From contig JAAYTD010000087.1 in NCBI GenBank assembly GCA_012518115.1, positions 86,568-150,567 on the forward strand: DNA of 64,000 nucleotides, written 5' to 3'. The stretch's first letter is position 1; each line of letters opens with the position of its first letter. This stretch comes from Ignavibacteria bacterium (lineage in GTDB: Bacteria > Bacteroidota > Ignavibacteria > Kapaibacteriales > UBA2268). The notes beneath the pieces were generated by a model. It was not told the DNA's origin and ran no database searches. It saw nothing but the letters and a program-made list of their open reading frames with translations. The position numbers were made by a program, and so were the translations under genes. Of this stretch, positions 4,180 to 56,840 are shown in pieces.

Positions 4180-4280
4180 CGTAGTAGTCAAATTCTCCTC
4201 TTGAGAGAAGACTCGCGCCAACGGGGAAGGTGTGGCTTATTATTCGTTTGCCACCCCTTCAATCTGAAAGGAAATTTTAA
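4180..4280. repeat. Dispersed intergenic repeat (family B + degenerate A), left flank of the DUF262 cassette
   Basis: ...AATTCTCCTCTTGAGAGAAG...ACGGGGAAGGTGTGG...TTCGTTTGCCACCCCTTCAATCTGAAAGGAAATTTTAA. Confidence 0.8.
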
Positions 4281-4325
4281 ATATAACTTAAAATCATAAT
4301 AATCTATAGTTAAAACAATTTAAGC

Positions 4326-6311
4326 TTATTCCTTTTTAAATAAAATATTTTCCATATTTTTCTGATGCTGTTTTATCTCTTCAAATGTCCATTTTTTATT
4401 ATCCTTGCATTTTTGCATCATAATCATAAACTTGAGTGAAGCTACACTAACCTGTTTAATCTTACCGGAAGAGTCTAAATAATGACTGAGCTTTGTTAGC
4501 GGGCTCCAATTACTTCCTGAACTATTTGCCTCGCTTCCAATCATTGCATAATTGCCCATACAGTTTATTTGTTCTTGTGTGGGTCTGCCATCTTTTCCAT
4601 CTGCGTTTGCTTGTGGATAAAAGTGTTCTAAACTTCTTCTTGTTCTTGAAAAATAAAATTGTTCAAATACTTCCAATCCAAAATCATTGCAACCTAAAAT
4701 CTTAAAAAACTCTATTCTTTCTCTGCTCTTTTTATCTGTTCCTTTACCACTTAATTCAACATAATACTTTTCCCATAACTTATAATCTAAGTAGTTAAAC
4801 ACAAATAAGGGAACTCCTTTTGATATTTCAGTGCCATTTCCATAAATTTCGGAGAAATTTTTTATATCTTGATTATGCAACTCTAAATCCAGCTCATTAT
4901 TATTACGTAAAATAGTTTCATCAAAACTGCCCGGTTTAGGCGTGTTGTTAGTATCGTTTAATTTGTCCTTATTTAAATATACATCTTTAAAGTATTTATC
5001 TGCCAAGTCATTTACAAATTTGTAATATTCTTCAATTTTAGTACCTTTTTCAAATAAATGCAATAAGCAATAGAATAGGTAATTTTTCCTTTGTCTTGCA
5101 GTATATGATACTTCAAACATAGATAACAATTGCACTAATTTATTCTGATCATCACTTTCACCATCAAGATTTTTCAGATATTCATTTTTCCCTTCTTTAT
5201 GCCAACGTTGCAACTTCCAAGGATTGTTTCCAATAGCATCATCTTCGTTGGAGTGATGCACTATATAGTTGTCTAAAAAGTATCTTGCTTTCAATAAGTT
5301 ATAGCTGAATGTTTTTACAAACTCTTCATTAATATTATTCCCCAGTTTGTCAAATTCCTGAATTAAGTATTTATCATCAAGAATGAAATCCGTTGGATCA
5401 AAATTTGAATTTTCTATTCTTATTCTTGTGAGTTTTAATACAATCAACAAGAAATTTGGGAAGTCAATAATTAGTTGGAAAGTATCAAACTTGTCGCCAT
5501 TCTTATTTGAACTATCAGATACTTTACCTTTAATAAGTTCTATTAATGGTTTTTTTTCTACTTTTGGCGATTCGCCGAATATCACTTTTTCTCTGTATTT
5601 TTGTTGAATGTAAACATTCATTTCACTGCAATTTTCCCATAATTTATTGAATTTTTCCTTGTCTGCATCATCTTTCAATTTCTCGATTAGGCGTGCTTTT
5701 ATTATTTCGTGCTTTTCTAATTGCTCACCTCTGGAGTTCATTATTTCAAAATAGTGATTTAGGTCAATATCCTTTGGCACATTGTAGTGAATAATATGAA
5801 CTTTGTCCAGAAAATAATCCTTAAAACTTCCTGTTTCTTTACCTGTTTCTTTTTCATTTTTATCTTTCGGAACAATTCTACCAATTGCATTCTCTACAAT
5901 ATTATAACCATTTATAATACCATAATCTTTTTCATCATTGTCAAATTTGGGAATACTTTTAATGGTATCATTAGCTTTTTTTCGTGCTCGGTAGGTCAAT
6001 TTATTTTGTACAGAAATACCCAAGACAGAAAGTACTAAATAAATAGTGGTCAGTCGCTGTTGACCGTCTATCACTTCATACACTTGGTCGCCTTTATGAT
6101 AAGAGACTAATGTCCCTATATAATAGTTGTTTTTTGAGCCGCCATTTTTACTTTTTAGGTAAGCATCATAGACATCTTGAATAAGTGCGGTAATTTCATC
6201 CTCTTCCCAGGCGTAATTTCTTTGATAAATTGGCACTTCGTATGTTGCTTTATTGCCGTTATATAGTTCATCAATAGATTGTTCTTTAAGTGGCAAGGTA
6301 TTCGTTTCCAT
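4326..6311 (-). CDS. DUF262 + DUF1524 (HNH-like) protein, GmrSD-type restriction/defence family
   Basis: N-terminal YEVPIYQRNYAWEEDEI, YYIGTLV, YEVIDGQQRLTTIYLVL (DUF262 DGQQR); C-terminal RRSLEHFYPQ...CMGNYAMIGSEANSSGSNWSPLTKLSHY resembles the DUF1524 HNH pattern. Confidence 0.82.
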   Translation of the reverse strand: METNTLPLKEQSIDELYNGNKATYEVPIYQRNYAWEEDEITALIQDVYDAYLKSKNGGSKNNYYIGTLVSYHKGDQVYEVIDGQQRLTTIYLVLSVLGISVQNKLTYRARKKANDTIKSIPKFDNDEKDYGIINGYNIVENAIGRIVPKDKNEKETGKETGSFKDYFLDKVHIIHYNVPKDIDLNHYFEIMNSRGEQLEKHEIIKARLIEKLKDDADKEKFNKLWENCSEMNVYIQQKYREKVIFGESPKVEKKPLIELIKGKVSDSSNKNGDKFDTFQLIIDFPNFLLIVLKLTRIRIENSNFDPTDFILDDKYLIQEFDKLGNNINEEFVKTFSYNLLKARYFLDNYIVHHSNEDDAIGNNPWKLQRWHKEGKNEYLKNLDGESDDQNKLVQLLSMFEVSYTARQRKNYLFYCLLHLFEKGTKIEEYYKFVNDLADKYFKDVYLNKDKLNDTNNTPKPGSFDETILRNNNELDLELHNQDIKNFSEIYGNGTEISKGVPLFVFNYLDYKLWEKYYVELSGKGTDKKSRERIEFFKILGCNDFGLEVFEQFYFSRTRRSLEHFYPQANADGKDGRPTQEQINCMGNYAMIGSEANSSGSNWSPLTKLSHYLDSSGKIKQVSVASLKFMIMMQKCKDNKKWTFEEIKQHQKNMENILFKKE

Positions 6312-6313
6312 AG

Positions 6314-7900
6314 TTATCCTTGAATAAAATTATGTTCTTTAAAATAGTGCAGATAGTATTGATAAATATCATTTTCGTCTTTTTCATTTAGTAAATCTTC
6401 TTTCATATTTTCATATTCTTTCACTCTTATTGCACTCTTAGGTAACGGACTCAATTTATCAGAGAGCGAACTTAAAAGCGAAGCCGGAGAATCAGCATCA
6501 GCTATCATTTTATAGATATTAAAAGAATTAATCTTGTCATTTCCCATAATATAATTTTGTGCAGACTGCCAACCGAGATTTTGATATTGAGCCCTGAGTG
6601 AGTATGCCCAAATAAAAGCATGCACCACAAACCGGTTTTCCAGCATTTCTATATCTATTTTCGAAGGTCGTTCGGTGGGACAAAATCTATCTACATAAAG
6701 CAAAACTGCTGTGTCAAACAATAAACGAGTTATTCCATTACCAACGCCATTTTTATATTTTTCCAAGTCTAAGGTTTTTACAATTTCATTATCACTAATA
6801 AAATACCCTTCATATTTATTGTTACTTTGAATGTCTTTGAGAATTTCAAAATAGTGCTGAGCATAGTCAAAAAACGCTTTCCCTGCAATAAGCGGTGCAT
6901 CTAATTGAAAGGGTTTAAGATTTTGCATACCGGAAACAAAGGGCATTGCAGAATTATTAATCATTTGGGCATACGCATACGCACCTTTGAAAAATTGAGC
7001 ATAAGGATAGTTGCCATCGCTTGTAATACCTTTAAACTTATGTATGTTTTGTTCGTTAAGCTCCCACGCTCGATTCCCTTTAATCCATTCTTTTAACCGA
7101 TATAGATAATCGCTAAACAAACGCGAAAGTTGTTTCTGGTCTAAGTCTTCCCACTCTTTAACGGTCTTTTCAGTTTGCGTTACATCAAGATCATTCATTT
7201 CCCGAAGATGATAAGCCTTTAATAAATCGTGCGGATATAGCTTTTTCCCGCGAGAGTTTTGCGAGTCGAAAAACTGGAAAGCTTCAGAAATATCGTCAGT
7301 TATTACAACAATAAGCTCGCAATTATTCTTAATATATTTATATAGCTCTTGTCTTTCTCTATCATCTGTGATATTGCGTATGCGTCTTTGTAATACTCGA
7401 AAATTATTGGGAATATTCCTGGAATTGTACGGATTGTCAGTTAAAGATTGTTCCAAAAAACTTATTTTTTTAGGATTGTCTTCGTTTTTCTCTATATTAT
7501 CTTTTTCATCTTTTTCGTCTTTGTCATCTTTGTCATCTTTAAAAGCCTCAAGTAGCAACGATAAAGTTATTATTCGTTGTTGTCCATCAACGATATTATA
7601 TTCTGGCTTCTTTTTATCATTTTCATCTTTTGATTTTTCATCATAGTGAAGAATAAGAGTACCTATTCTGTAGGTTTCTTTGTTTTCGTTTTTGGCTTCA
7701 ATAATATCATCAAGTAAGCGGATAGCATTTCTTGCAGTCCATTTATAGGGGCGCTGATAAGGCGGGATTACTAAATTAATATTTTCTATAGAATTACCTT
7801 CAGCATTACGGCTAATTTTATTAGCGATAAGTAAATCCCCTATTTTGGTTATAGCAAGTTTAAGTTTATTATCTTCGTTAGGATTATTTTCTTGTGCCAT
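6314..7900 (-). CDS. DUF262 protein without a recognisable HNH domain (partner of the 4326..6311 gene)
   Basis: IPPYQRPYKW, YRIGTLILHY, YNIVDGQQRIITLSLLL; no EHxxPQ/GNL-type C-terminus; stop is 2 bp before the next start. Confidence 0.8.
   Translation of the reverse strand: MAQENNPNEDNKLKLAITKIGDLLIANKISRNAEGNSIENINLVIPPYQRPYKWTARNAIRLLDDIIEAKNENKETYRIGTLILHYDEKSKDENDKKKPEYNIVDGQQRIITLSLLLEAFKDDKDDKDEKDEKDNIEKNEDNPKKISFLEQSLTDNPYNSRNIPNNFRVLQRRIRNITDDRERQELYKYIKNNCELIVVITDDISEAFQFFDSQNSRGKKLYPHDLLKAYHLREMNDLDVTQTEKTVKEWEDLDQKQLSRLFSDYLYRLKEWIKGNRAWELNEQNIHKFKGITSDGNYPYAQFFKGAYAYAQMINNSAMPFVSGMQNLKPFQLDAPLIAGKAFFDYAQHYFEILKDIQSNNKYEGYFISDNEIVKTLDLEKYKNGVGNGITRLLFDTAVLLYVDRFCPTERPSKIDIEMLENRFVVHAFIWAYSLRAQYQNLGWQSAQNYIMGNDKINSFNIYKMIADADSPASLLSSLSDKLSPLPKSAIRVKEYENMKEDLLNEKDENDIYQYYLHYFKEHNFIQG
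7501..7544. repeat. 9-bp-period tandem tract (ctttkTCrT units) inside the DUF262 gene
   Basis: ctttttcat ctttttcgt ctttgtcat ctttgtcat cttt; encodes part of KDDKDDKDEKDEKDN just after the DGQQR region. Confidence 0.8.
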
Positions 7901-7949
7901 AATTTATTACTTAATTTTTCCAATTATCACAATTAATTATTTATAATTG

Positions 7950-7957
7950 CAAATATA
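7950..7957 (-). promoter_or_regulatory. Candidate Bacteroidota -7 element (TATATTTG) for the DUF262 operon
   Basis: Plus strand caaatata; reverse complement TATATTTG matches TAnnTTTG; start codon at 7900. Confidence 0.5.
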
Positions 7958-8032
7958 CTAATTTTTTTTACAAAATTTATTGAGATAATAATAAATCTTA
8001 CATTGCTGTTTTTCGTACTAAGTTGAATATTT

Positions 8033-8092
8033 TGTCTGAACTACCCCGTCAAACTTCGTTTGCCACCCCTTCAAGTTGAAGGAGAATTTTAA
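8033..8092. repeat. Dispersed repeat family A, right flank of the DUF262 cassette
   Basis: TGTCTGAACTACCCCGTCAAACTTCGTTTGCCACCCCTTCAAGTTGAAGGAGAATTTTAA. Confidence 0.85.
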
Positions 8093-8113
8093 AATACATC
8101 AATACTAAAATCA

Positions 8114-8150
8114 AAAAACCGCTCAAAAATAGTTATTGAGCGGTTTTTTT
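8114..8150 (-). terminator. Rho-independent terminator, probably of the DUF3467 gene
   Basis: AAAAAACCGCTCAA-aaatagtta-TTGAGCGGTTTTTTT: strong GC stem with T tract, downstream of the gene ending at 8181. Confidence 0.75.
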
Positions 8151-8180
8151 TGTTATATCAAGAAAGAAATACAGCTTTTT

Positions 8181-8498
8181 CTAATTAGGTAATCCTGAAA
8201 AGCCCGGAATACCTGCTCCTGCTGTACCTTCTGTTTCTATTTCTCCATTTGATTGTTCAAATTTTTTGATATTTTCCATCATTGCATTTGCAAACATTTT
8301 TGCATGTTGAGGTGTCATAACGATTCTAGCGTGAACTTTTGCTTTAGGAACTCCCGGCAAAATTCTTGTAAAATCAATAATAAATTCAGCTTGCGAATGA
8401 GAGATAATAGCAAGATTTGAATAAATACCTTCAGCAGTTTTCTCATCTAGTTCGATACTTATTTGCTGAGGTTTTTGTTGTTCATCTTTTTTTTCCAT
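8181..8498 (-). CDS. DUF3467 domain-containing protein
   Basis: ISIELDEKTAEGIYSNLAIISHSQAEFIIDFTRILPG...VHARIVMTPQHAKMFANAMMENIKKFE matches my recollection of DUF3467. Confidence 0.85.
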   Translation of the reverse strand: MEKKDEQQKPQQISIELDEKTAEGIYSNLAIISHSQAEFIIDFTRILPGVPKAKVHARIVMTPQHAKMFANAMMENIKKFEQSNGEIETEGTAGAGIPGFSGLPN

Positions 8499-16197: not shown

Positions 16198-16350
16198 TTG
16201 TCTGAACTGTGATTTTTTGATTTATATGATTACCGTGATTTATAAGGGATTGGTGAAATTCCCCTTCGGGACGAAGGGGTGGCAAGCGCTAGCTTGACGG
16301 GGTAGTCATTTTTTGTCTGAACTATGATTTATATGATTAGTGTAATTTTA
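16198..16350. repeat. Dispersed composite repeat (family C - A - C)
   Basis: TGTCTGAACTGTGATTTTTTGATTTATATGATT...TTCCCCTTCGGGACGAAGGGGTGGCAAGCGCTAGCTTGACGGGGTAGTC...TGTCTGAACTATGATTTATATGATTAG. Confidence 0.85.
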
Positions 16351-26057: not shown

Positions 26058-26158
26058 TTATCTGAACTGTGATTTATATGATTTTTGTGGTTTTAAGATG
26101 TTGTTAAAATTCCACTTCGGAACGAAGGGGTGGCAAACGAAGTTTGACGGAGTAGTCA
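26058..26158. repeat. Dispersed composite repeat (family C + A)
   Basis: TCTGAACTGTGATTTATATGATT...TTCCACTTCGGAACGAAGGGGTGGCAAACGAAGTTTGACGGAGTAGTC. Confidence 0.85.
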
Positions 26159-26167
26159 ATAAAAAAA

Positions 26168-35315: not shown

Positions 35316-35511
35316 GAAAATTATATCACCTATTCTTCCAAACTCATGCCGTTATGTACCTACTTGCTCGCAATATACAATAGAAGCTATAGAAAAACAC
35401 GGCATTTTCGGAGTACTGCTCGGCATGTGGCGTATATTAAGATGCAATCCTTTCGCTAAAGGTGGCTTTGACCCTGTCCCTGACAAGCTCTTTAAAAATA
35501 ATAAGTTGTAA
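35269..35511 (+). CDS. yidD: Membrane protein insertion efficiency factor YidD
   Basis: [60 protein letters not shown]. Confidence 0.95.
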
Positions 35512-35514
35512 TAG

Positions 35515-35645
35515 ACTACTCCGTCAGGCTAGCGCCTGCCACACCTTCGTCCCGAAGGGGAATTTTGTAGCCCGACCTTCAGGGAAGTTGAATTTAAAAA
35601 ATCCCCAAAATCATATAAACCACAAAAATCACAGTTCAGACAATA
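35515..35645. repeat. Dispersed composite repeat (family A + C, reverse orientation)
   Basis: GACTACTCCGTCAGGCTAGCGCCTGCCACACCTTCGTCCCGAAGGGGAATTTT...AATCATATAAACCACAAAAATCACAGTTCAGACAA. Confidence 0.85.
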
Positions 35646-39419: not shown

Positions 39420-39840
39420 ATGAAGTTTGACGTGGTAGTCGTTTGAAGTCGGAAGACGGGAGACAGAAGCAATTGACAATGGATTTTTTAACCGCAAAGA
39501 ACACAAAGACTTACGCAAAGATCGCAAAGAAGATAGAAGTCGGATTGTGTCGATTTACCTGATTTATATGATTAGTGTGATTTTAAGATGTACTAAAAAT
39601 TCCCCTTTGGAACGAAGGGGTGGCAGGCGCTAGCCTGACAGGGTAGTTTTTAATAAAATTTACTACAAACCCCGTAGGGGTGGCATTATTATAGAAAAAT
39701 TAATGCACAAAAACAAAGAAACCCCGTAGGGGTGACATAGCGTTCTTGTTTGGCTAATTAAAAATGTCACCCCTACGGGGTTTTATCAAAATTTGGACTT
39801 CACAATGCTATAATAATGTCATCCCTACGGGATTTTTAAA
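39420..39840. repeat. Intergenic repeat-accretion zone containing several dispersed families and a nested inverted repeat
   Basis: CGCAAAGA-type repeats (39490-39530), family C/A composite (39548-39650), and CCCCGTAGGGG units: two in one orientation (39666-39742), two inverted (39763-39836). Confidence 0.85.
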
Positions 39841-47715: not shown

Positions 47716-47747
47716 TAAACCACCTCGCCTACTGAGGAAAATTTTAA

Positions 47748-47795
47748 AATTCCCCTTCCCAGAAGGGGTGGCAAACGAAGTTTGACGGGGTAGTT
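47748..47795. repeat. Dispersed repeat family A
   Basis: AATTCCCCTTCCCAGAAGGGGTGGCAAACGAAGTTTGACGGGGTAGT. Confidence 0.88.
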
Positions 47796-47819
47796 AATAA
47801 AAAATATTCAAAATTAAAA

Positions 47820-49745: not shown

Positions 49746-49833
49746 TATCTTGTAAAAATAAAATATGATATTAATTATATTTAGATAATATTACAACCGT
49801 TCAAAATTTATATTTTGTTCAATGATGTTTTAA

Positions 49834-50048
49834 AATTCCCCTTCCCAGAAGGGGTGGCAAACGAAGTTTGACAGGGTAGTCTATTAATAAAATTAACCAC
49901 AAACCCCGTAGGGGTGACAAGATTATAGAATAAATTAAACCGCAAACAATCAAACCCCGTAGGGGTGACATAGCATTATAACTACACATCCCCTGCTTCG
50001 CAAAATGAGGGCAAAAGACCCTTATCTACAACTCTCAAGAGGAGAATT
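49834..50048. repeat. Dispersed repeat cluster: family A, two CCCCGTAGGGG units, family B
   Basis: TTCCCCTTCCCAGAAGGGGTGGCAAACGAAGTTTGACAGGGTAGTC; AAACCCCGTAGGGGTGACA (x2); ...CAAGAGGAGAATT. Confidence 0.85.
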
Positions 50049-53627: not shown

Positions 53628-54911
53628 CTATTTTACATCAAATACTTCTCCATCACGAAGAGAAATAATATTAACTTGTTTGTTAAAAAATTCCTCAAAT
53701 TTTTCAGGAGCTCCTGTGTGAATGGGTATAATGCCACCTTTGGGTTCTACTGTTTCAAAAACCACTTTTAGCGTTTCCAAATCTGCATGACCGCTTGTGT
53801 GCATATGTTCAATTTCATATGGTTTCAAAAAATCATATAATGTTTCATTAAAAGCAGGTTTCTCACGATCCAAATATCCGTCCCACATAGAATAATATAT
53901 CTTAGTGTCGTTTAATTTAGAGTATTCCTCTAAGAGTGGCTTAAAGGCATCATTTGAACGTATGAGCATACAAAAACCATATCTATCTAAATATGATTTT
54001 AATTTTTCATGAAAATAAAAAGGTTTTTCCCCTTTACGTATCAAATCAAAGAAACGCCCTGCTGGATCTGTATTTTGCTCATAGTCAATGTCATAAAAAG
54101 ATGTGTATTGCTTATGGTTTTCTGAGACTATTTTTAGAGTTTTCGCTTGATAGTCATCGCAAACAAAACAACGCTTTGCCTTTTTTGAAACATGATACAA
54201 TGCGAATATCCTATCTATGTTAGTTGAAGAAACTAAAACAAAGTTGTACTTGTATTTTTGAAGATAGGATTCAAAATCTTTTTGTAGTTCGTTTTCTGTT
54301 TTAATTTTATCATTTGCGCGTTGAATATTTGTACCTTCGGAAATAATGTAATCAATATCTTTGGCGTAGGCTTTAAGTGTTGGAATAAGTCCTTTACTTC
54401 TGAATCCATGTCCGCGAAAATCGCCCGTATGTAGTATTCGTTTATTATCAGCCTCAATAACAAACATATAAGCGTCGAAAGCGGAATGGTCAACAAATAG
54501 TGGCATAACAGTAATTTCCCCAATTGTGACTTTTTGCAATGCCTCAAAAGTGTTGATTGTTTTAATACGCTCAACAATTCTTTTGTGCCTTTCAGCCTCG
54601 TTGGGGTCCGGTATGTAGGACAATCTATTTTCGATATGTTTAAAAATTTCTAGTGCAGTTTTCCCTACGTATATCGGTAAATCATTAACCGTATCGCAAA
54701 TTTTTCCAATATGGTCGCCATGATAGTGAGTTATAAATAATGCACTTTTTGAAACATCACCACAAGTTAACCCATCTATCGGGCTTAATTCTTTAGCATC
54801 TGTTCCGAGCAACTGTTCGCCAAAGTCAATAAAAACTTTATAGCCGTCACTTTCAATCTCGGTTATACAACCGCCAATTTGATTTGTTCCTCTATGAATT
54901 GTTAGTTTCAT
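53628..54911 (-). CDS. RNase J-like metallo-beta-lactamase/beta-CASP hydrolase
   Basis: FITHYHGDHIGK (HxHxDH), VDHSAFDAYMFVIE, ILHTGDFRGHG, SEGTN, HTSGHADLETL, IIPIHTGAP. Confidence 0.85.
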   Translation of the reverse strand: MKLTIHRGTNQIGGCITEIESDGYKVFIDFGEQLLGTDAKELSPIDGLTCGDVSKSALFITHYHGDHIGKICDTVNDLPIYVGKTALEIFKHIENRLSYIPDPNEAERHKRIVERIKTINTFEALQKVTIGEITVMPLFVDHSAFDAYMFVIEADNKRILHTGDFRGHGFRSKGLIPTLKAYAKDIDYIISEGTNIQRANDKIKTENELQKDFESYLQKYKYNFVLVSSTNIDRIFALYHVSKKAKRCFVCDDYQAKTLKIVSENHKQYTSFYDIDYEQNTDPAGRFFDLIRKGEKPFYFHEKLKSYLDRYGFCMLIRSNDAFKPLLEEYSKLNDTKIYYSMWDGYLDREKPAFNETLYDFLKPYEIEHMHTSGHADLETLKVVFETVEPKGGIIPIHTGAPEKFEEFFNKQVNIISLRDGEVFDVK

Positions 54912-55882
54912 TCAGGTATCCTTTCGTCGTAAGCACCATCAATAATATCAGTAATTTCAAGATTATCAAGTGTTGCTTTAGAAAATAAAAAAGTTGCAAA
55001 AAATTTGTTACCTCTCTTTGTAATGTCACCGAATTCGTTTTCCACAGTGTTTTTTGCTAATCTTTTACAACCCCAACGCTTTTCTTTGAAAAGGTATCCA
55101 GCCAATGTTTGTTTAGGGGTGCTTGCTTTCACACTTTCGGCATTATTATCCAATATAATAAAATAAAACTCTGGAACTTTCTTTAAATCGGATTCTTTAA
55201 TCAACCCGAAAGGCACATCTACCCCGAGTTCTTTTTGACTTTCAACTATAGCAATTATGTCATGTTTTAAATGTTCTTCAAAATAACCTTTTTCTAAAAA
55301 AACACTAAAATCGCTTACGTGTTTCTTGATTCCACTTGGTTCCTTTAGAGAGCCTTTACCATATTTTAACTCTATCAAAGCGACCCTATACGGTTTCTTT
55401 TTGGAAAGTGCAATAATATCAAATCGCGCATTAAAATTTGCCTCGTTTTTTGCTGCTTCATTTTTAAAAGGTTTTACATATTCAATATCGATGCAAAACC
55501 AATTTGAATCTAAGTTTTTGTTGTTCAAGAGGACTAATTTTGATTGAGCTTTTTTTTCCTGAGTTTTTCTTATATTACTATGGCTTTTAATAACCTCGTA
55601 CTGAGCATATATTTCTTTCGGTCCAGTTTTATATCGCTTGTTTTTATCCTTGCTATCGTAATGTTTTCCATCTAAATAATACTTATCAATCACACAATTG
55701 ATTTTTTTATCTCGCAATTTATACTCTACCCTCGCAATACTATCACAATTATAATACAAATTCAAATAATTGTTTCTCACTCCGATAAATAATTCGTGTT
55801 TGTGTTCTTTATAAAGATTATAAAGTTCACTTTGTTTAAAAGCTTCTGCAAATTCCGTAGAAATTCTTCGTATATTTTCCAT
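54908..55882 (-). CDS. Hypothetical protein with a PD-(D/E)XK-like nuclease motif
   Basis: RFDIIALSKKKPYRVALIELKYGKGSL gives D...ExK spacing; start reassigned to MENIRRISTEF at 55882; stop overlaps the next start (54908-54911). Confidence 0.6.
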   Translation of the reverse strand: MENIRRISTEFAEAFKQSELYNLYKEHKHELFIGVRNNYLNLYYNCDSIARVEYKLRDKKINCVIDKYYLDGKHYDSKDKNKRYKTGPKEIYAQYEVIKSHSNIRKTQEKKAQSKLVLLNNKNLDSNWFCIDIEYVKPFKNEAAKNEANFNARFDIIALSKKKPYRVALIELKYGKGSLKEPSGIKKHVSDFSVFLEKGYFEEHLKHDIIAIVESQKELGVDVPFGLIKESDLKKVPEFYFIILDNNAESVKASTPKQTLAGYLFKEKRWGCKRLAKNTVENEFGDITKRGNKFFATFLFSKATLDNLEITDIIDGAYDERIPE

Positions 55883-55904
55883 TAGTTCGTTCCCATTTTT
55901 ATAT

Positions 55905-55945
55905 AAAACAAATATAACAAAAAAAATTGTATATATATTCAAAAC
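55905..55945 (-). repeat. 41-bp promoter-like direct repeat, copy 1
   Basis: aaaacaaatataacaaaaaaaattgtatatatattcaaaac; reverse complement contains TTG...TATATTTG. Confidence 0.85.
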
Positions 55946-56010
55946 TCAGATTTTTTTATTCTTGTTTCTATCATTTTAATTTCAGCATCAATCACAAAAC
56001 AAGTAGCTTA

Positions 56011-56840
56011 TTATACTTTTTCCCCTTGTAGCCACATAAATCCAGTTAACAAGTCGCCTACTTTAGGTTTTTGGTCAAAAAAATCTGTCTTAGCATATAA
56101 GTTAATTTCAATCTCTGGAAATCTAAAAAGCGTTATCTTAAATTTATAGAAATCTTTGTCAAACGCACGTATAGTTTCAATGCTACTAATTGGTGATAGA
56201 AATTCCGCATCATCCGGATAATCCTTATTTGCTTGTAGGAAAATAACAAGTTGACTTAGATTAAATACGAAAGGCTCCACATTGCCCTTTTCATCATAAG
56301 TTGGTTCTTCTTCAATTTTTTCAAGCCAATCTATTGCTTCTTGTCCTTCCAATGATAATGATGCTTCTTCCTGAATTTTAACATTATACCCTAATGCAGA
56401 AATAGCAAAATCGTATGTTTCACCTATTTTGTAGGTTTCTTTATGTAAAAAATAACTTGTGTCGAAAAATGAAATTGTTTGATCGTCTTCTGTTTTTCCT
56501 GTTATAACTGCTTCAATAAGGTGTTCCCATTCATTGATTTCAGTAATTTCCAATTGAACAATATTTTTTCCTTTGATTGAATAAATGGATAAGCACAAAC
56601 AGCTTCATTAATCTGTTTTTCCGGATTTACTGCAACCAAAACTTTTGTAGTTAGTTCAGCTTCATCTGTAATGGTAAAGACTTCAGTAGCAGTTGGAGTT
56701 TTATCCCCAAAATACTTAGCAATTATTTCAGATTTTTCTATTTTATTTCCTTTTTGAATCATTGAAGGAAAAATCTCATCAAGTACTTTGTCAATTTCTT
56801 CAACACAGTCCCAGTGATTTCCATGTCCATGCTTAACCAT
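56011..56840 (-). pseudogene. Frameshifted hypothetical gene (ORFs 56502..56840 and 56011..56598 are two parts of one reading frame)
   Basis: Upstream frame reads ...NEAVCAYPFIQSK-E; downstream frame resumes ...KGKNIVQLEITEINEWEHLIEAVITG. The junction is an A6 run (GGAAAAAAT); adding one A gives a single 276-aa ORF (831 nt). Confidence 0.72.

Follow-up and report, generated by a model that had tools for sequence, protein, structure and literature searches.

The two minus-strand genes at 6314-7900 and 4326-6311 of the 64,000-nucleotide stretch of Ignavibacteria DNA analysed here (the window) very probably constitute a TgvAB-like two-protein type IV restriction operon directed against modified phage DNA, an assignment that draws on sequence and on analogy with characterised systems. 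We stop short of a firmer statement because the likeness to the Vibrio cholerae proteins VC1767 and VC1766 is one of description, not of direct sequence comparison. A defence role had already been proposed in the first-pass annotation of this DNA, and both homology and the precedent of TgvAB and GrwAB lend it good support; the accompanying view that such pairs are less characterised is outdated, since DUF262/DUF262-nuclease pairs have been tested genetically (PMC11411939, PMC12137116). Judged from its sequence, the window pair is real and is probably a functional TgvAB-type system, of a kind already known.

The first gene of the operon, at 6314-7900, encodes a TgvA-like protein of 528 aa (A), and the second, at 4326-6311, a TgvB-like protein of 661 aa (B); the A gene is transcribed first, and the gap of 2 bp between the two is as first annotated. 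Both proteins match GmrSD_N/DUF262 at their N-termini (Pfam E 2.5e-33 for A and 3e-35 for B), and B alone of the two also matches GmrSD_C/DUF1524 (E 3.6e-10), a C-terminal His-Me (HNH) nuclease domain that lies beyond a helical middle region; A has no nuclease domain. With GmrSD_N and GmrSD_C both above the curated Pfam cut-offs, B belongs to the GmrSD family. The C-terminal part of A (residues 243-486) matches DUF7834 (E 2.5e-58), a Pfam family of unknown function that the first-pass annotation had not recorded. The YQR and DGQQR motifs that it had reported in both proteins are indeed present, and each protein also carries the FxxxN motif of DUF262: YQR 48-50, DGQQR 105-109 and FDSQN 211-215 in A, and YQR 29-31, DGQQR 82-86 and FEIMN 188-192 in B, with H563, N587, N596 and N601 forming the H...N...N set of the DUF1524 nuclease. 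In alignments of 14 A proteins, all with DUF7834, and 12 B proteins, all with GmrSD_C, every one of these motifs and the four nuclease residues are invariant, and neither window protein appears degenerate. No specific model in PADLOC or NCBIfam covers the pair over its full length; two PADLOC models, HEC-06 and Orf5, hit the DUF262 portions of both proteins, and the SspE models of PADLOC match the pair weakly. Scans for sigma-70 promoters (7850-8200) and for the pattern TAN7TTTG gave chance-level results.

Relatives of the pair are found well beyond the window's lineage. The nearest are in Flavobacterium (77% identity for A, 69% for B), Myroides (74% and 71%) and a Bacteroidales genome (77% and 70%), and more distant pairs, about one-third identical, lie on plasmids of Klebsiella, Aliarcobacter, Picosynechococcus, Pseudoalteromonas, Vibrio, Acinetobacter and Citrobacter, so that the plasmid-borne pairs span three other phyla; those on the Vibrio aerogenes and V. 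parahaemolyticus plasmids are full-length homologues of both A and B. Further pairs occur in G062, a genome of the window's family, in another four genomes from the phylum sample and in four contigs from IMG/VR; a search of phage records returned no relatives. In all complete loci examined the order is A then B, and in the genomic and plasmid pairs the two genes abut or overlap, apart from the insertions described below. A DUF7834 protein above Pfam's cut-off is present in 5 of the 296 genomes of an even phylum sample (the window's genome included), each time with a B-type partner directly downstream, and a B partner was present for every above-cut-off DUF7834 protein among those checked; a sixth match in the phylum sample, below threshold (L240), is a lone protein that itself ends in a nuclease. 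The distance matrices of A and B over 17 complete pairs correlate with r 0.97, a value reached by none of 2000 permutations, and this correlation, together with the constant pairing, indicates that A and B are inherited together as a single unit. Two of the plasmid loci have been invaded by insertion sequences: in Picosynechococcus (L089 4944-9090) an IS1 transposase gene lies within the B region and B is broken, and in Acinetobacter (L093 4938-9613) A and B are separated by ISAba1. A-type proteins occur in 889 records of the plasmid collection as a whole. Klebsiella accounts for 854 of these records, and 756 of all 889 are predicted to be conjugative.

Within the window the pair stands alone among housekeeping genes, with no restriction genes adjoining: on one side are a FemAB-like gene and dapA, the latter identified by sequence reading, and on the other are genes for DUF3467 and TPR proteins. 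It is thus not part of a type I restriction operon, whereas its relatives often lie within or next to one. The Myroides pair (L085) is embedded in the order HsdM, an ORF6N protein, HsdS, A, B, HsdR; in Vibrio aerogenes the order is HsdR, HsdM, HsdS, A, B, and both arrangements closely resemble that of tgvAB. In Flavobacterium a gene for a type ISP restriction enzyme lies upstream of the pair, with an HsdR gene after it on the opposite strand, an HsdR-type (type I restriction) gene precedes the pair in G062, and near other plasmid loci there are genes for viperin and AbpA and further restriction-type genes. The HSDR_N genes of the window's own genome are on contigs other than the pair's. That genome also encodes a third DUF262 protein, of 389 aa (L003 1396-2565, contig C78), beside a 378-aa ORF that by sequence reading resembles a DNA methyltransferase.

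TgvAB of V. cholerae is encoded on VPI-2 as VC1767/VC1766, with a DUF262-only protein first and a DUF262-DUF1524 protein second (PMC11411939). The window pair shares with it the two adjacent co-directional genes, the nuclease-less DUF262 protein in first position, the three DUF262 motifs in both proteins, an H...N...N DUF1524 His-Me nuclease in the second protein only, and relatives that lie in type I restriction operons. It differs in its position outside any restriction operon, in the size of A, which is larger and carries an insertion, and in sequence, the sampled Gammaproteobacterial relatives being about one-third identical to it and VC1767/VC1766 being compared by description. The embedding is not defining for TgvAB, since 1,341 tgvAB hits, with Bacteroides fragilis represented among them, were reported against 79 five-gene hits (PMC11411939). 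The insertion in A is acidic and lysine-rich (KDDKDDKDEKDEKDNIEKNED, window 7466-7540), is encoded by a degenerate GATGACAAA-like repeat and is missing from A's nearest relatives. GrwAB, from WASA Vibrio cholerae, resembles the window pair as a two-protein GmrSD-like system with DUF262 in both proteins and DUF1524 in one; there, however, the nuclease gene comes first, the partner extends into a long C-terminus with several domains, and GrwB and TgvA have DUF262 alone in common (PMC12137116), whereas the window's nuclease protein is second and its partner carries only DUF7834 after DUF262. Gene order and domain content thus place the window pair with TgvAB rather than with GrwAB.

What we observed for the window pair is its gene order, domains and intact motifs, its conserved pairing and co-inheritance, and the defence neighbourhoods of its relatives; by homology with TgvAB, we infer how it would work. 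The two DUF262 proteins would jointly form an NTP-dependent sensor of modified phage DNA, for example hydroxymethylated and glycosylated DNA, with NTP bound or hydrolysed by the DUF262 domains during sensing, and on recognition the His-Me nuclease of B would cut the modified DNA. TgvAB restricts T-even phages with sugar-modified cytosines (PMC11411939), all 15 Tevenvirinae tested being restricted by the V. cholerae system (PMC11411939; PMC12409362), and its activity depends on both genes and on the DGQQR motif of each protein, nuclease mutants being inactive (PMC11411939). A may be a GmrSD paralogue that lacks a nuclease and physically associates with B. It is unlikely, in our estimate, that B is instead a self-sufficient single-chain enzyme of the GmrSD/BrxU type, with A a regulator or inhibitor-resistance factor outside the sensor. 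B by itself does have the complete DUF262-helical-DUF1524 architecture of the single-protein GmrSD, BrxU and HEC-06 enzymes and matches the DndI, SspE and BrxU structures, and PMC11411939 allows that TgvA counters a phage inhibitor or regulates. Unlike those single-protein enzymes, however, B has a nuclease-less DUF262 partner in each complete locus that we examined; TgvB on its own was not protective, and protection was lost when the DGQQR of TgvA was mutated (PMC11411939), and the A and B proteins are found together and co-inherited, with A's NTPase motifs invariant.

The structural comparisons bear both on the domain reading and on a further alternative. AlphaFold models of the two proteins are of middling quality (mean pLDDT 69 for A and 67 for B), and structure searches with them place SspE, DndI and BrxU as the nearest folds. 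The model of A matches SspE with Z 16.7, but with an rmsd of 20 over 298 residues, DndI with Z 14.2 (363 residues of model 15-527 and chain 5-499 at an rmsd of 7.8), and BrxU with Z 7.3; the best matches of the B model are DndI, SspE and BrxU. The high rmsd values indicate that the domains match and their relative placement does not. Below these three, the VIA-align results include ParB at Z 4.6-5.7, consistent with the resemblance of DUF262 to ParB, and otherwise generic helical matches. Read cautiously, the models suggest that A may be a GmrSD-like protein minus the C-terminal nuclease, with DUF7834 in the position of the helical linker. Since SspE and DndI, sensors of phosphorothioate systems, are the nearest solved structures and the PADLOC SspE models also find the pair, if weakly, one could propose a phosphorothioate-sensing effector for which host DNA sulphur modification is the self mark. 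We consider this highly improbable: a DndC-family search of the pair's own genome, which is 97% complete, found no match, the structural resemblance comes mainly from the common DUF262 domain and helical linker, and SspE and DndI are single proteins acting in concert with their modification genes (PMC9646914, PMC11662687).

The TgvAB-like cassette was probably acquired horizontally, because the distribution of the pair is patchy: it is present in one of the 53 other genomes of the window's family in a 100-genome sample (G062) and absent from the same-genus genome G001. The GC content of the cassette (31%) equals the window mean (32%) and so is uninformative on transfer. The cassette lies at a synteny break, in that G001 has dapA-FemAB and TPR-DUF3467-HAD on separate contigs with other neighbours; in another genome (G009), TPR, DUF3467 and FemAB are adjacent, with FemAB in reverse orientation.

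How the cassette was gained is a separate matter, for which the first-pass annotation had invoked recombination between two flanking repeats; we find it distinctly unlikely that the cassette is a mobile unit gained or lost in this way. The repeats are where they were reported, outside the system and in the same orientation (plus strand): an intergenic copy at 8034-8092, with its 38-mer at 8055-8092, lies about 140 bp upstream of A, and a composite copy at 4190-4280, with its 38-mer at 4243-4280, lies 45 bp downstream of B, a placement that, with the synteny break, is what would favour such exchange. The two 38-mers are identical at 33 of 38 positions, so they differ at five, and one of the two is just as similar to a copy elsewhere. 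The repeat family has the approximate form GACTACCCCGTCAAACTTCGTTTGCCACCCCTTCGTCCCGAAGGGGAATTT, often adjoining AAATTCTCCTCTTGAGAGGAGTACCCGCG..., and the composite copy is a module AAATTCTCCTCTTGAGAG... fused to TTCGTTTGCCACCCCTTC... without the GACTACCCCGTCAAAC part common to most copies. The family is not specific to the cassette but is genome-wide, scattered and lineage-specific: the 2.48-Mb genome holds 94 copies with at most 2 mismatches, G001 none, and any of 28 other sampled genomes at most 3. In the window a 20-mer with at most 3 mismatches was observed 5 times against 0.01 expected, well in excess of chance, and a profile gave 13 hits at about 12 places, roughly one per 5 kb, including further copies at 16256-16310, 26107-26160, 35511-35565, 39597-39651, 47747-47798 and 49833-49884. 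About 6 of 11 neighbouring pairs in the window share orientation, and same-orientation copies are likewise found on either side of a TonB-dependent receptor gene (47747/49833) and of a two-gene block (26107/27659). Because the family is dispersed and brackets ordinary genes too, the two flanking copies are no evidence for repeat-driven exchange. A cassette-free allele with one repeat copy, which this reading predicted, was not found: G001 has neither a matching junction nor the repeats. As a strong hairpin the repeat is unconvincing (z -1.8).

For the TgvAB-like reading, DUF7834 is likely a signature of the TgvA-type subunit, because the checked above-cut-off DUF7834 proteins all precede a nuclease partner, and it would be a marker for finding two-protein systems across several phyla. 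The trigger of the window pair could differ from that of the Gammaproteobacterial systems, because the A proteins of those systems share only about 31-35% identity with the window A. It is possible, if doubtful, that DUF7834 proteins are nuclease-less GmrSD paralogues which set the DNA modification recognised by the complex, and that the branch of the window, Flavobacterium, Myroides and Bacteroidales pairs is adapted to sensing a modification different from glycosylated hydroxymethylcytosine. Diverged pairs of this branch offer material for swap experiments on the question, raised in PMC11411939, of why two DUF262 proteins are needed.

Elsewhere in the window, three consecutive minus-strand genes occupy 53628-56598; the neighbours at 54908-55942 and 56011-56598 have products without a Pfam match, and the remaining gene encodes a metallo-beta-lactamase-fold protein.
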